Assembly: GCA_020628865.1 (NCBI GenBank)
Contig: JAHDEJ010000003.1
Location: 175,159-214,235, forward strand
Reading direction: 5' to 3'
Length of the DNA: 39,077 nucleotides
From: Acidimicrobiales bacterium
GTDB lineage: Bacteria > Actinomycetota > Acidimicrobiia > Acidimicrobiales > SHLQ01
Shown: in pieces, positions 29,966 through 35,751 of the stretch
Layout of the letters: each line of letters opens with the position of its first letter
Numbering within the stretch: position 1 is the first letter of the stretch
Translations under genes and position numbers: made by a program
Notes under the pieces: generated by a model
Database searches by the model: none
The model's input: the letters and a program-made list of their open reading frames with translations, nothing else
Told to the model about the DNA's origin: nothing

Positions 29966-32017
29966 ATGGGAACGATTCAGGTACTCGGCACATGCCATCA
30001 CGACTGCCCCGACAGCTGTGGGTGGACGGCCACCGCCGAAGACGGTGTGCTCACGAACCTCAGAGGCAATCCTGAGCATCCCTTCTCCAAGGGCGAGCTG
30101 TGCCCCAAGGTGAACCGTTTCGTCCACCGGGTGAACGACCCGGATCGGCTCCTGCATCCGATGATTCGGACGGGGGAGAAGGGCGCAGGCGAGTTCCGGC
30201 AGGCGACGTGGTCCGAGGCACTCGACCACATCGTGACCGAGGTGAACGCTCGACGGGACCAGCATGGCGGCGAGACGATTCTGCCCTGGTGGAGCGCCGG
30301 CACCCAGGGCACCATTCAGCAGAGCGCCATCCATCCCCACTTCTTCCATCGCCTCGGCGCCATGGAGCAGGCCGGGAACGTCTGCGGCGCCGTCGCCGCA
30401 GTGGGTATGGCGGCAGCGTACGGCTCCACACGCGGGGCCGACCCGCTGCAGCTCGAGCATTCCGAACTGGTCATCCTCTGGGGCACGAACACCAGGCTCA
30501 CCAACCGCCACCTGTGGCCGACCGTTGAGCTCGCCCGCTCACGGGGAGCGAAGATCGTCGTCGTCGACCCGATGAAGACCATCACGGCGGACGCGGCCGA
30601 CCAGCACATTCAGCCGCTGCCGGGCACCGACATGGCGCTCATCCTGGCGATGATGCACGTGCTCATCGACGAGGATCTCCTCGACCATGCGTACATCGCC
30701 GATCACTCCGTCGGATTCGACGAACTGGCTGCTTCGGTGAACGACCGCACGCCCGAGTGGGCGGCACCGCTGTGCGGTCTCGACGCCGACACGATCCGTA
30801 CCTTCGCCCGGAGCTACGGCTCGACCCAGGCGGCGATGATCCGCGGTCTCGTCGGCGCGGAACACCATGCGCACGGCGGTTCCGTCTTTCGATCGTTGTC
30901 GCTGCTGCCGGTGCTCACGGGGGCGTGGCGCCATCGGGGCGGCGGCATGGCTCGCAGCGTCGGGGCGTGGCAGGAACTCGCCGACGTCGACTACGGCGTG
31001 TTCTCGCCGCCGACGATGGCCGCCGAGCCGCGCCGGTCCTACCTGCAACCCCAGCTCGGACAGGCGCTGACCGATCCGACCATGGACCCGCCCGTCACCG
31101 TGCTGTTCGCGTGGAGCGGCAACCCGGCACTCTCCATGCCCAACACCGGCGCCGTCGAGGCCGGGCTGCGCCGCACCGACCTCTTCACCGTCGTCTCCGA
31201 GCAGTTCATGACCGACACGGCCCGCTTCGCCGATGTCGTCCTTCCCGCAGCCATGCAGACGGAGACCCTCGACATCGTTCCCTCCTGGGGGCACCTGTGG
31301 CTCGGATGGAACGAACCCGCAACGCCGCCCATGGGCGAGGCCGTATCGAACACCGAACTCTTCCGACGGCTCGCCGCCGCGTTCGACTTCAACGAGCCAG
31401 AGCTCCATCTGGACGACGAGGACCTCATCGAACTGGCCCTCCACCCCGACGTGGACCGGAGCGAGCTCAGAACCAACGGCTTCGTGCGAATCCGCGACAC
31501 GGACGACCTCATGCCATACGCGGACGGAGGCTTCGCCACGGCGAGCGGGAAGGCCGAGTTCGCAAGTGACGCGATGGAAGCCATCGGTCAGCCGCGCGTG
31601 CCCACCTGGACGCCAACGCCGGAGGGCGCTGGATCCGAGCTGATGGAACGATTCCCGCTGATGCTCACCACGCCGAAGAAGCAGCCGAGGTTCCTCAACA
31701 CCTCGTACTCGATGCTGGAAGCCCACCACAGCCGGGAGAAGGGGCCGTTCATCGAGCTCGACGCCGCCGACGCCGCGGCCCGGGGGCTCGCCGACGGCGA
31801 TACGGCGACGGCGTTCAACGACCGCGGTCGGATCACGTTGACGGTGCAGATCTCCGAACGTCTCCGACCCGGGTTGGCCGCCATCGCGTGGGGTTGGGTG
31901 GGCGACGCCTACGGAGGCACGCCGGCCAACGGGCTCACGAACGACGCCACCACCGACATCGGCGGCGGTGCCGCCTACGGCGACACGCTGGTTCAGGTGG
32001 AGCCGGCCGCCGTCTGA
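29966..32017 (+). CDS. molybdopterin oxidoreductase of the DMSO reductase family, substrate unknown
   Basis: The 683-residue protein belongs to the bis-MGD superfamily that includes formate dehydrogenase, nitrate reductase and DMSO reductase. A 4Fe-4S ligand set is visible at C10, C14, C18 and C46 (C-x3-C-x3-C, then C-P-K). The likely molybdenum ligand is C140 in GNVCG, with GTNTRLTNRH and VVDPMKTITAD following. The C-terminal molydopterin-dinucleotide-binding domain is present (PLMLTTPKKQPRFLNTSY, ARGLADGD). No signal peptide, electron-transfer subunit or chaperone gene is near, so it is a cytoplasmic, solitary enzyme. I infer that it uses a soluble donor or acceptor. The substrate cannot be told. 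Its last 25 bases overlap the end of a minus-strand gene. Confidence 0.9.
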   Translation: MGTIQVLGTCHHDCPDSCGWTATAEDGVLTNLRGNPEHPFSKGELCPKVNRFVHRVNDPDRLLHPMIRTGEKGAGEFRQATWSEALDHIVTEVNARRDQHGGETILPWWSAGTQGTIQQSAIHPHFFHRLGAMEQAGNVCGAVAAVGMAAAYGSTRGADPLQLEHSELVILWGTNTRLTNRHLWPTVELARSRGAKIVVVDPMKTITADAADQHIQPLPGTDMALILAMMHVLIDEDLLDHAYIADHSVGFDELAASVNDRTPEWAAPLCGLDADTIRTFARSYGSTQAAMIRGLVGAEHHAHGGSVFRSLSLLPVLTGAWRHRGGGMARSVGAWQELADVDYGVFSPPTMAAEPRRSYLQPQLGQALTDPTMDPPVTVLFAWSGNPALSMPNTGAVEAGLRRTDLFTVVSEQFMTDTARFADVVLPAAMQTETLDIVPSWGHLWLGWNEPATPPMGEAVSNTELFRRLAAAFDFNEPELHLDDEDLIELALHPDVDRSELRTNGFVRIRDTDDLMPYADGGFATASGKAEFASDAMEAIGQPRVPTWTPTPEGAGSELMERFPLMLTTPKKQPRFLNTSYSMLEAHHSREKGPFIELDAADAAARGLADGDTATAFNDRGRITLTVQISERLRPGLAAIAWGWVGDAYGGTPANGLTNDATTDIGGGAAYGDTLVQVEPAAV

Positions 32018-32532
32018 CGGGCCTGGCGCCTCGCCTCGGCCACGGCGATGGACGCGGCCACGCCGACGTTGAGCGAGCCGACCTTGCCCATTTGCGGGAT
32101 GTAGCCGACTGCGTCGCAGAGCGGGAACATCTCCTTGCTCAGTCCGCGATCCTCGTGACCCACGACGAGGCAGACATCGCCCGCCATCTCCACCGACTCC
32201 AGGGGAACGGCTTCGTCAGCCAACTCGATACCGACGATCGTGAAGCCGGCCGATCGGGCCAACGCAGCCGCCTCGGTCGGCGTTTCGACCGCCGTCCACT
32301 CGACGTAGCGCTGCGTTCCCATCGCCGTCTTGTTGGTCTTGGCGTGGTTCGGCGATTCGGTCGCGCCCACGAGCCAGAGCTGGTCGACGCCGAGGGCGGC
32401 CGAGGTCCGCAGGATGGTCCCGACGTTGTAGGGCGTCTGCACCGAGTCGAGAATCAGCGACACCCGCTGGGTGGTCTGTCGGCGCCAGTCACGGTGCAGG
32501 CGCTTGAGTCCGGTCGGATCGAGGTTCTTCAT
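31993..32532 (-). CDS. TrmH/SpoU-family RNA 2'-O-methyltransferase
   Basis: This 179-residue SPOUT enzyme transfers a methyl group from SAM to ribose 2'-OH of rRNA or tRNA. The three family motifs are in place: YNVGTILRTSAALGV (motif 1 with Asn and Arg), LVVGHEDRGLS (motif 2), and IPQMGKVGSLNVGVAASIAV (motif 3, with the trefoil knot). It lacks the N-terminal substrate domain of rRNA enzymes and is close to TrmH-like short forms; the target is unknown. The start overlaps the stop of the upstream methyltransferase (ATGA), so both are co-translated. Its stop lies inside the end of the convergent oxidoreductase gene. Confidence 0.9.
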   Translation of the reverse strand: MKNLDPTGLKRLHRDWRRQTTQRVSLILDSVQTPYNVGTILRTSAALGVDQLWLVGATESPNHAKTNKTAMGTQRYVEWTAVETPTEAAALARSAGFTIVGIELADEAVPLESVEMAGDVCLVVGHEDRGLSKEMFPLCDAVGYIPQMGKVGSLNVGVAASIAVAEARRQARQTAAGST

Positions 32533-33143
32533 GTGGTGCCCACCGTCGTTTCGAGGATTCGATAGCCCTTCCGCGAGCTGAGACGAGTCGTCGGCCAACC
32601 CTGGTCGGTCATCCACGTCGCCAGGCTGTCGCTCCCGAGATGCTTCTGGACCACCATCCACGCACACCCGCCGGGGGAGAGCCTTGGGATCCACTCGGCA
32701 AGCAGACCGTGCAGGGCCTGTTTGCCGATACGAATCGGCGGGTTCGAGACGATCAGGTCGAAGCGCTGGTCGGCCGGAACCTCCGCACCGGTGACGAAGC
32801 TGGCGGTCTCGATGCCGTTGGCATCGGCGTTCTCGCGAGCGAGGGCGAGCGCCCGCTCGTTCACGTCGACACCGAAGACCGCAGCCCCAGGTGCCCGCCG
32901 GGCCATGGTGAGCGCGATGGGGCCATAGCCACAGCCCAGGTCGAGCACGCTCGTTGTTTCGTCCGGCACCGGTGGCATCTCCTGCAGGAGATAGCGGGTG
33001 CCGGGGTCGACCCGACCGGCCGAGAACACACCACTGTCGGTATGGAGCTCGAGAAACACATCGGCGAGAGACAGCTCGATCTGCTGTCGGTTCGACCCAA
33101 CCGAGGGCTGGGCGTCGAAGTAGTGGGAACCTTCCGAACTCAC
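32529..33143 (-). CDS. class I SAM-dependent methyltransferase, RsmC-like (MTS domain)
   Basis: The 204-residue protein carries an MTS-type methyltransferase fold: SAM motif VLDLGCGYGPIALTMA, FGVDVNERALALARENA, and the catalytic SNPPIRIGKQAL, as in 16S rRNA guanine methyltransferases of the RsmC/RlmG group. The N-terminal pseudo-domain of RsmC is absent. I use GTG at 33143, since TACCGT lies exactly six bases before it on this strand; ATG at 33167 would give 212 residues but would face the def start directly. The methylated site is unknown. It is translated ahead of the TrmH-family gene. Confidence 0.88.
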   Translation of the reverse strand: MSSEGSHYFDAQPSVGSNRQQIELSLADVFLELHTDSGVFSAGRVDPGTRYLLQEMPPVPDETTSVLDLGCGYGPIALTMARRAPGAAVFGVDVNERALALARENADANGIETASFVTGAEVPADQRFDLIVSNPPIRIGKQALHGLLAEWIPRLSPGGCAWMVVQKHLGSDSLATWMTDQGWPTTRLSSRKGYRILETTVGTT

Positions 33144-33149
33144 CCCGTA

Positions 33150-33159
33150 ACGGTATCCT
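33150..33159. promoter_or_regulatory. overlapping divergent -10 boxes of def and the methyltransferase
   Basis: On the plus strand TATCCT (33154-33159) lies six bases before the def ATG. On the minus strand TACCGT (33155-33150) lies six bases before the methyltransferase GTG. The two hexamers share bases 33154-33155, and the two start codons are only 22 bases apart. Two polymerases could not occupy both at once. Confidence 0.6.
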
Positions 33160-33165
33160 GAGGAC

Positions 33166-33738
33166 ATGAGCGCGCCGTACCGAATCCGACACTACGGTGA
33201 CCCCGTCCTGAAGCAGGTCGCCAAAGAGGTCACCGAGATCGACGGTGCACTGGTGCGTCTCGTCGACGACATGCTCGAGACCATGTACGAAGAGCCCGGC
33301 ATCGGCCTTGCGGCTCCGCAGGTCGGCGTGCGCAAGCGGCTCTTCGTCTACGACATGTACGCCGGCGAGGACCCGAAAGCGATCATCAACCCCGAGATCG
33401 TCGAGTCCGACGGCGAGTGGGAGTTCGACGAGGGCTGTCTCTCGGTTCCCGGTCTGTCCTGGAACATCGTCCGTCCCAAGACCGTGCACCTCATCGGTCT
33501 GGACCTCGACGGCAACGAACTGTCGATCGAAGCCGACGAGCTCGAGGCTCGCGTCTTCCAACACGAGCTCGACCACCTCAACGGGGTCCTGCTCATCGAG
33601 CGGTTGGACGACGAGCAGCGCAAGGAAGCCATGAAGGTCCTCCGCGAGCGGGCGGAAGCCGGCGATTCTGCGGCCAGCCGCCTTGGCGCCGACCTCGGCA
33701 TCGAGGTGCCCCGTTCCGGTGGCCTGAGCCTTCCCTGA
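33166..33738 (+). CDS. def: peptide deformylase
   Basis: Def removes the formyl group from new proteins. The 190-residue product has the three motifs GIGLAAPQVG, EGCLSVPG and QHELDHLNG, whose Cys and two His bind iron, with the catalytic Glu in HELDH. The C-terminal tail is longer than in E. coli, as in actinobacteria. The start is supported by the -10 box TATCCT six bases upstream. It forms the usual def-fmt pair. Confidence 0.97.
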   Translation: MSAPYRIRHYGDPVLKQVAKEVTEIDGALVRLVDDMLETMYEEPGIGLAAPQVGVRKRLFVYDMYAGEDPKAIINPEIVESDGEWEFDEGCLSVPGLSWNIVRPKTVHLIGLDLDGNELSIEADELEARVFQHELDHLNGVLLIERLDDEQRKEAMKVLRERAEAGDSAASRLGADLGIEVPRSGGLSLP

Positions 33739-33745
33739 TCGTCCG

Positions 33746-34627
33746 ATGAGCCTCGCCCCCATGCCGGAGACCGTCCGGCGGGTCGCCTTCCTGGGCACGC
33801 CAGCCATCGCGGTGCCCGCACTCGTGGCGCTCGTGGAGGCCGGATACGAGGTCCCGATCGTCGTCTCCGGCGCCGACAAGCGGCGCGGCCGGGGCCGCTC
33901 CACCTCGCCGACACCCGTCAAGGAGCGGGCGCTCGAACTCGGCCTCATCGTGGACACCGACGTCGAAGCCGTGCTGGATCACGACGTCGACCTCGCCGTC
34001 GTCGTCGCCTTCGGTCAGCTCATCCGCCCCCACGTTCTGGCGGAGGTCCCGATGGTGAACATCCACTTCTCACCGCTCCCGCTCTGGCGCGGGGCCGCTC
34101 CCATCGAGCGAGCGATTCTCGCCGGCGACACGGAGACCGCGGTGGTCATCATGACCGTCGCGGAGGGCCTCGACGAAGGCAACGTGCATCGCAGCGTGAC
34201 GGTGCCGATGGCCACCACCGACACCACCGGCAGCCTGTGGGCCGAGCTGAGCGTGATCGGCGCCGAGCTGCTCGTGGAAACGCTCGAGGCCGGCCTCGAC
34301 GCTGGTGCTCCGCAGGAGGGCGATGTCGTCTACGCCCACAAGCTGTCCTCCGAGGACCGACGGATCGACTGGAGCAAGTCCGCCGTGCAGGTCGATCGAG
34401 TCGTTCGCGTCGGCGGCGCTTGGACCACCTTCCGGGGCGAGCGCTTCAAGATCCACGAGGTCGAGGTGATCGATGGTTCTGGTTCACCCGGGCTGCTCGA
34501 GGCCGACGCAGTGCTCACACCGGACGGTGCGATCCGGCTCGTCACCGTGCAGCCGGCCGGAAAGCCACGCCTCGGAGCCCAGGACTGGCTCAACGGCGCG
34601 CAGGCCGACGGCGAGTCGTTCGAGTGA
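33746..34627 (+). CDS. fmt: methionyl-tRNA formyltransferase
   Basis: Fmt formylates initiator Met-tRNA. The 293-residue product has GTPAIAVPALVALV, the catalytic Asn-His in VNIHFSPLPLWRGAAPIE, the Asp loop GLDEGNV, and a C-terminal OB-like domain (GERFKIHEVEV). All catalytic residues are present. The start ATG lies seven bases after the def stop with no ribosome site; ATG at 33761 (MPETVRRVAF) would also fit. Ends in a four-base overlap with rsmB. Confidence 0.96.
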   Translation: MSLAPMPETVRRVAFLGTPAIAVPALVALVEAGYEVPIVVSGADKRRGRGRSTSPTPVKERALELGLIVDTDVEAVLDHDVDLAVVVAFGQLIRPHVLAEVPMVNIHFSPLPLWRGAAPIERAILAGDTETAVVIMTVAEGLDEGNVHRSVTVPMATTDTTGSLWAELSVIGAELLVETLEAGLDAGAPQEGDVVYAHKLSSEDRRIDWSKSAVQVDRVVRVGGAWTTFRGERFKIHEVEVIDGSGSPGLLEADAVLTPDGAIRLVTVQPAGKPRLGAQDWLNGAQADGESFE

Positions 34628-35751
34628 GCGACAGCGGTGTTGCCGCCCGTCGGCTGGCCATCGATGCGCTCGAACGCATCGATCGTGATGGCGCCTATGC
34701 AAACCTGCTCCTGCCGCAGCTGCTGACCGAGTCCGAACTCGACGAACGGGACCGAGGATTCGTGACCGAGCTCGTCTACGGATCCACCCGAATGCGGCGA
34801 GCGCTCGACCATGTGATCGCCCGTCATCTGATGCGCGACGACGTGGAGCCACGAGTACGAGCGGCGCTACGGATCGGGGCATATCAGCTGCTCTTCCTGC
34901 GTACGCCGGCACATGCGGCGGTCGATGCCACCGTCGGCGCCACGCCAAAACGGGCCCGTGGGTTCGTGAATGCCGTGCTGCGCAAGGTCGGCCGGGACTC
35001 CGCCGAGATCGACTGGCCGAACGACGGGATCCGGTTGAGCTACCCGACATGGATGCTGACTCGACTGACGGAAGACCTCGGCGAGCGGGCCGTTCCGGTG
35101 CTTGCCGCAATGAACGAGGCCGCCGTGGTGCACACGCGTGCCGACGGCTACCGCCAGGATCTGGCGTCCCAGGAGGTCGCCGCGTTGGTGGCCTCTGCAC
35201 ATGGCGATCTGGTGATCGATCTCTGCGCCGCCCCCGGCGGCAAGTCCACCCACATCGCCGGACGGGGAGCGACGGTCATCGGTGTCGACCTCCACGAGCA
35301 TCGGGCCGGGCTGATCGCGCAAGCCGCAGCCGACACGGCGTCGTCGGTTCTGCCGATGACCGCAGACTCGACCAACCCGCCCCTTCGGCCGGGATGCGCC
35401 GACGCCGTGCTGGTCGACGCTCCATGTTCTGGGCTCGGGTCGTTGCGGCGTCGCCCCGACGCGCGCTGGCGGATCGAGGCGTCCGACGTGGGTGCGCTCG
35501 CCGAGCTCCAGTTCGCCCTCGTCCGTTCTGCGACGACGCTCGTGCGACCCGGCGGTCAGGTCGTGTTCAGTGTGTGCACACTGACGGATGCCGAATCGCT
35601 CGGGGTCGACCAGCGCATCGAATCCGAACTGCCGGAGCTCGTGCCGGAGCCGTTGTCGGCACCGTGGGAACCCCACGGCCGCGGCGGCCGGCTCCTGCCG
35701 GACACGTTCGCCGGCGACGGTATGACCGCGTTCTCCTACCGCCGAGCCTGA
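34624..35751 (+). CDS. rsmB: 16S rRNA m5C967 methyltransferase RsmB/Fmu
   Basis: RsmB methylates cytosine 967 of 16S rRNA. The 375-residue product has a NusB-like N-terminal RNA-binding domain (ARRLAIDALERIDRDGAYAN, GFVTELVYG) and a methyltransferase domain with DLCAAPGGKSTHIA (SAM), VDAPCSGLGSLRRRPDARWR with the first Cys and SVCTLTDAE with the catalytic Cys. The E. coli STCS site is changed to SVCT, keeping Cys. The GTG overlaps the fmt stop (GTGA). It ends seven bases from the convergent acyl-CoA dehydrogenase. Confidence 0.95.
   Translation: MSDSGVAARRLAIDALERIDRDGAYANLLLPQLLTESELDERDRGFVTELVYGSTRMRRALDHVIARHLMRDDVEPRVRAALRIGAYQLLFLRTPAHAAVDATVGATPKRARGFVNAVLRKVGRDSAEIDWPNDGIRLSYPTWMLTRLTEDLGERAVPVLAAMNEAAVVHTRADGYRQDLASQEVAALVASAHGDLVIDLCAAPGGKSTHIAGRGATVIGVDLHEHRAGLIAQAAADTASSVLPMTADSTNPPLRPGCADAVLVDAPCSGLGSLRRRPDARWRIEASDVGALAELQFALVRSATTLVRPGGQVVFSVCTLTDAESLGVDQRIESELPELVPEPLSAPWEPHGRGGRLLPDTFAGDGMTAFSYRRA

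Follow-up and report, generated by a model that had tools for sequence, protein, structure and literature searches.

Bidirectional promoters have been described whose divergent start sites are separated by 10, 18 or 23 bp, the 18-bp form being reported as the commonest in E. coli (PMC12825309). A separate literature describes leaderless genes, which in Actinobacteria carry the motif TANNNT some 12 bp 5' of their start codons (PMC3160421), as do those of M. tuberculosis (PMC3898074); such promoters are described as GC-rich, with no clear -35 element, and an SRN extension before the hexamer is described for M. tuberculosis (PMC3898074). The -1 base of M. tuberculosis promoters is usually C or T, closely juxtaposed divergent promoters are common, and a figure legend in the same paper presents prpD and Rv1129c as both leaderless (PMC3898074).

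Here, we analyzed a window, the whole 39,077-nucleotide stretch of DNA from an Acidimicrobiales bacterium, in which the deformylase gene def and a methyltransferase gene, here called mts, diverge from one another. We consider it highly probable that positions 33141-33168 constitute a doubly leaderless bidirectional promoter, from which def and mts would be transcribed, each starting at its own start codon, as weak and largely independent transcripts. The features of the locus are as follows:

33166..33738, plus strand: def, peptide deformylase (NF001159, TIGR00079, PF01327)
33746..34627, plus strand: fmt, methionyl-tRNA formyltransferase (TIGR00460, 191.9 bits, cut-off 201.5)
34237..35751, plus strand: open reading frame with an rsmB-like 16S rRNA methyltransferase, below the equivalog cut-offs (bounds are those of the frame, not the gene start)
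32529..33143, minus strand: mts, MTS-domain class I methyltransferase (PF05175, 124 bits), with its GTG start deduced from relatives
33165..33167, minus strand: ATG that would lengthen mts and overlaps the start codon of def (open reading frame list; not preferred)
31993..32535, minus strand: SpoU/TrmH-family RNA methyltransferase, next after mts (bounds are those of the frame, not the gene start)
33150..33159, no strand assigned: shared core ANNNTANNNT (ACGGTATCCT), two overlapping -10 boxes (from the sequence), conserved in relatives as A-CG[G/C]-TA-N-CC-T
33154..33159, plus strand: putative def -10 box TATCCT, 6 nt before the def ATG (33166-33168)
33150..33155, minus strand (read 33155-33150): putative mts -10 box TACCGT, 6 nt before the GTG at 33143-33141
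33151..33153, plus strand: CGG, 5' of the def box, matching the SRN (CGN) extension of M. tuberculosis promoters (PMC3898074)
33156..33158, minus strand: GGA, 5' of the mts box, matching SRN in the opposite direction

Re-reading of the window, in which 33150-33168 is ACGGTATCCTGAGGACATG, confirmed at every coordinate the claim of an earlier note that back-to-back -10 boxes with a common TA lie between start codons separated by 22 nt. The palindromic TA at 33154-33155 belongs both to TATCCT of def and to TACCGT of mts, such that the two -10 elements, on opposite strands, have bases in common, and in either direction the first T of TANNNT lies about 12 bp 5' of the start codon. By eye, nothing resembling a Shine-Dalgarno sequence was seen between TACCGT and the mts GTG, and no usable site precedes def, where GAGGA ends 1 nt before the ATG, which is too close for a usable Shine-Dalgarno sequence. 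A sigma-70 consensus scan returned no promoter at the def/mts site because it demands a -35 match.

In the proposed mechanism, the housekeeping RNA polymerase would bind ANNNTANNNT in either orientation, with the palindromic TA serving as positions -12/-11 of both -10 boxes and the inner bases of each box serving as the extended -10 of the other. Transcripts would begin with, or adjacent to, the A of the def ATG in one direction and the G of the mts GTG in the other, which puts some 23 bp between the two start sites. Translation of both mRNAs would begin at their 5'-terminal start codons. Two polymerases would be sterically exclusive, but by default the site would be expected to yield two weak transcripts, largely independent of each other, and not to act as a switch. 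The start sites, the two-way activity and the use of the inner bases are what we infer; the -1 base of mts, which is G where C or T is usual in M. tuberculosis (PMC3898074), counts against this explanation.

The earlier note had gone further, stating that, if both genes are leaderless, the two transcription units would be mutually exclusive at this point. The geometry upholds the physical part of that statement, as two polymerases cannot occupy the site together. A regulatory switch, in which the core forces a choice between the def-fmt-rsmB and mts operons, biased by a regulator or mutation, seems unlikely: competition at E. coli bidirectional promoters is reported to arise under strong activation only, and at five of five such promoters the basal activity did not suffice for it (Warman et al. 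2026, PMC12825309), leaving regulatory exclusion unsupported. In addition, the layout has been lost repeatedly among relatives while both genes persist, as in 32 loci in which mts has its own box elsewhere (displaced loci), so exclusion would not be indispensable. In favor of a switch are the steric overlap and the competition reported under activation in E. coli; moreover, the def-fmt-rsmB neighborhood and that of mts with the SpoU/TrmH-like methylase both look translation-related by their domain matches. These matches bear out part of the further claim that both operons act on translation, in which mts itself is a candidate only. RsmC, a 16S rRNA methyltransferase, was rejected as the identity of mts (NF007023, 60.9 bits against a cut-off of 295), leaving the MTS domain PF05175 as the sole profile whose threshold the protein reaches. 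Elsewhere, the genome carries a second, distant deformylase-like gene with 43% identity (G000:C18:93419-93880).

It is quite improbable that the site serves def alone, with ATG 33167, or a transcript that begins within def, giving rise to mts, and with TACCGT as a by-product of a conserved def extended -10. The in-frame ATG does exist, and CGGTA is common before def even where mts is absent; the evidence on the other side comes from relatives. Of 167 mapped loci, 16 lacked def in the stretch; the def start region was read in the other 151 genomes, all from the same order, which are a selection of the matches found, since not all of the listed matches were taken in. A wider locus search returned mostly distant genomes, and of its 80 loci L031-L038 were looked at. 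Among relatives with a readable def start, 150 of 151 carry TANNNT 4-9 nt before it.

Position -16 of def is the informative base because def has no need of it: it completes the mts box alone. This base is A in all 51 loci where mts has an in-frame start at a distance of 6-8 nt (direct loci) and in 11 of 88 other loci, where it is mostly C (Fisher, 1.5e-27), with two loci having weak mts matches, L021 and L029, counted as mts-positive (mts_other) in this comparison and dropped from the later tree and mini-ORF scoring. Collapsed by genus, the counts are 30/30 versus 10/69 (4e-17); by class, A is found in 4 of 38 loci without adjoining mts, 3 of 32 displaced loci and 4 of 18 others. The 11 of 88 loci that retain A without a direct mts start stand against the bidirectional reading. 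When def fragments were placed on a rough, midpoint-rooted tree, the layout changed 26 times; in 20 cases the A changed on the same branch and in the same direction, and the 6 cases with no matching change count against the bidirectional reading. This covariation suggests that the base is fixed where the promoter is shared and tends to be lost where the mts promoter has relocated. Conservation of the overlap in relatives, which the earlier note had named as a check, was thereby found both at def -16 and in the def box, and its suggestion that one mutation could tilt the balance between the operons draws natural support from the A-to-C/G/T differences at that position. The inner bases are near-invariant in direct loci (A-CG[G/C]-TA-N-CC-T), all 51 of which have the SRN extension on both sides; as 23 of 32 displaced loci have it as well, the inner bases may serve def alone.

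Several relatives depart from these layouts. In L005 (G006), def and mts are separated by a gene for a LysE/RhtB-type exporter, which has a TAGCCT of its own located 7 nt upstream of an in-frame GTG, and the A at def -16 is retained. In G033 and G328 (f16 g21), def and mts are about 1.6-1.7 kb apart and not back to back. Family f7 (L184, L200, L205, L233, L244, L259, L260 and L264) has a different predicted mts promoter layout: in these eight loci, the mts start is offset by only 1-5 nt from its expected place, and no reverse TANNNT was found at leaderless spacing.

The longest mts frame in the window opens at the in-frame ATG 33167-33165, which overlaps the def start codon and counts against the bidirectional reading, so that the GTG start at 33143 is a predicted one. 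We prefer this GTG because 51 relatives have an in-frame mts ATG or GTG 6-8 nt beyond the reverse box and because, in 34 of these 51 direct loci, no further in-frame mts ATG or GTG occurs upstream before a stop, which also argues against a site serving def alone. On this evidence from the relatives, a start at ATG 33167 was set aside. By eye, the hexamer located 12-7 nt upstream of that ATG on the minus strand is TACGGC, lacking the final T of TANNNT. A single relative, L211, retains the shared box with no ATG, GTG or TTG start for mts; an in-frame CTG seen by eye 7 nt past the box is a possible leaderless start.

Eleven loci in five families (L012, L023, L121, L155, L156, L160, L212, L224, L225, L241 and L246) retain the shared box with no direct mts start. 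Instead, each of the 11 carries a short ORF of 5-24 codons, which begins at a start codon 6-9 nt from the box and ends in a TGA that shares bases with the start codon of mts in a GTGA or ATGA (RTGA) overlap. The peptides are mostly dissimilar across families, and shuffling of the spacer yields such a mini-ORF in about 1-6% of trials per locus. Because these loci were found via a complete reverse TANNNT box, their A is present by construction; they were therefore excluded from the comparison of 51 with 88 loci and rescored blind to A, whereupon 11 of 17 loci with A and 0 of 40 without it had a mini-ORF, two loci being unscorable. The simplest reading of the mini-ORF loci is that the mts mRNA begins at the shared box, which, together with the base at def -16, speaks against a promoter for def alone.

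That the two hexamers overlap by chance, the genome being compact, an idea favored by the shortness of TANNNT with its three specified bases, is hardly credible in view of the covariation, the positional peak and the spacing control. In the bacterium's own genome (G000, 5.36 Mb), of which 1.13 Mb was sampled and 993 genes were called by a simple codon model, TANNNT lies at gaps of 6, 7, 8 and 9 nt before the called starts of 82, 35, 18 and 11 genes, and at other gaps before 0-8 genes each. This peak, first visible in a 333 kb sample, agrees as a prediction with the published leaderless-gene signature of Actinobacteria. Genome G500 (400 kb), where gene calls were poor (79% coverage), gave few motif peaks and no shared arrangement among 70 divergent pairs, and was left out of further analysis.

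The bidirectional layout itself recurs. The pattern CAY-N6/7-ANNNTANNNT-N6/7-RTG was found at 15 places in the whole own genome versus 3 for the reversed pattern; 12 of the 15, def/mts included, lie exactly between ORFs with a positive coding score, another is truncated at the end of its contig and the other two fail. Twelve pairs remain when def/mts is set aside, and 8 of these have Pfam domains on both sides. The fourteen other places (L302-L316) include pairs of a JAB-domain gene with smpB, ThiS with a histidine phosphatase, a CofC-like gene with an unknown one, and an aldehyde dehydrogenase with a thioesterase. Across 59 relatives, 6/6 spacing gave 164 sites versus 35 for 10/10 spacing. 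Boxes on both sides occur in 20 of 141 divergent pairs in the 1.13 Mb; 3 share the TA, and no other offset was seen twice among the 20. The 18-bp arrangement with leaderless starts at gap 6 was found at no place in the own genome. Across the phylum, in 181 genomes outside the class, the 6/6 pattern occurred 353 times against 238 for the reversed-pattern control, a mild excess, and strong claims are therefore limited to the order. The motif, its spacing, conservation, covariation and recurrence are properties of the compared sequences themselves.

A broader proposal, which we put forward tentatively and hold to be possible though doubtful, is that Acidimicrobiia and other Actinomycetota possess a distinct, recurrent class of minimal promoter with start codons 22-24 nt apart, one TA and mutual extended -10s, in which the def/mts pair would co-set two translation-related operons and selection would keep a leaderless mini-ORF to reach an mts that has moved. 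Whatever its generality, the def/mts site offers a compact natural test of what a promoter needs, with its 10 bp, two start codons and single shared TA. The relatives, in which the boxes are shared, separated or linked through a mini-ORF, lend themselves to asking if sharing couples the operons or merely economizes, and the pattern search yields more candidate pairs in the own genome and in related genomes.

Compared with known systems, the def/mts site resembles the Warman/Grainger bidirectional promoters in its overlapping -10 elements on opposite strands (PMC12825309, PMC10268837), and its inferred distance would be that of the 23-bp class if both genes start at their start codons (PMC12825309). 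Unlike in those promoters, the start sites would coincide with the start codons, and therefore the promoter core and the intergenic region would be the same 22 nt. The motif and spacing are identical to those of described leaderless genes, as are the GC-rich setting, the SRN and the lack of a clear -35 (PMC3160421, PMC3898074), whereas those accounts, as cited here, concern single genes; for the prpD/Rv1129c pair, the legend states no shared TA, unlike the situation at def/mts (PMC3898074). The mini-ORF loci recall the mycobacterial leaderless small ORFs (Shell et al. 2015, PMC4633059) in the leaderless mini-ORF itself, in the precise RTGA overlap and in a layout better conserved than the peptide; unlike the small ORFs as presented there, the mini-ORF here appears to retain the shared promoter once the mts start has moved. 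In the literature searched, no report of the combined architecture was found, and the claim of novelty goes no wider than that search. Collectively, two-way promoters of the 23-bp class are known, and what is new is their predicted doubly leaderless, deeply conserved form.
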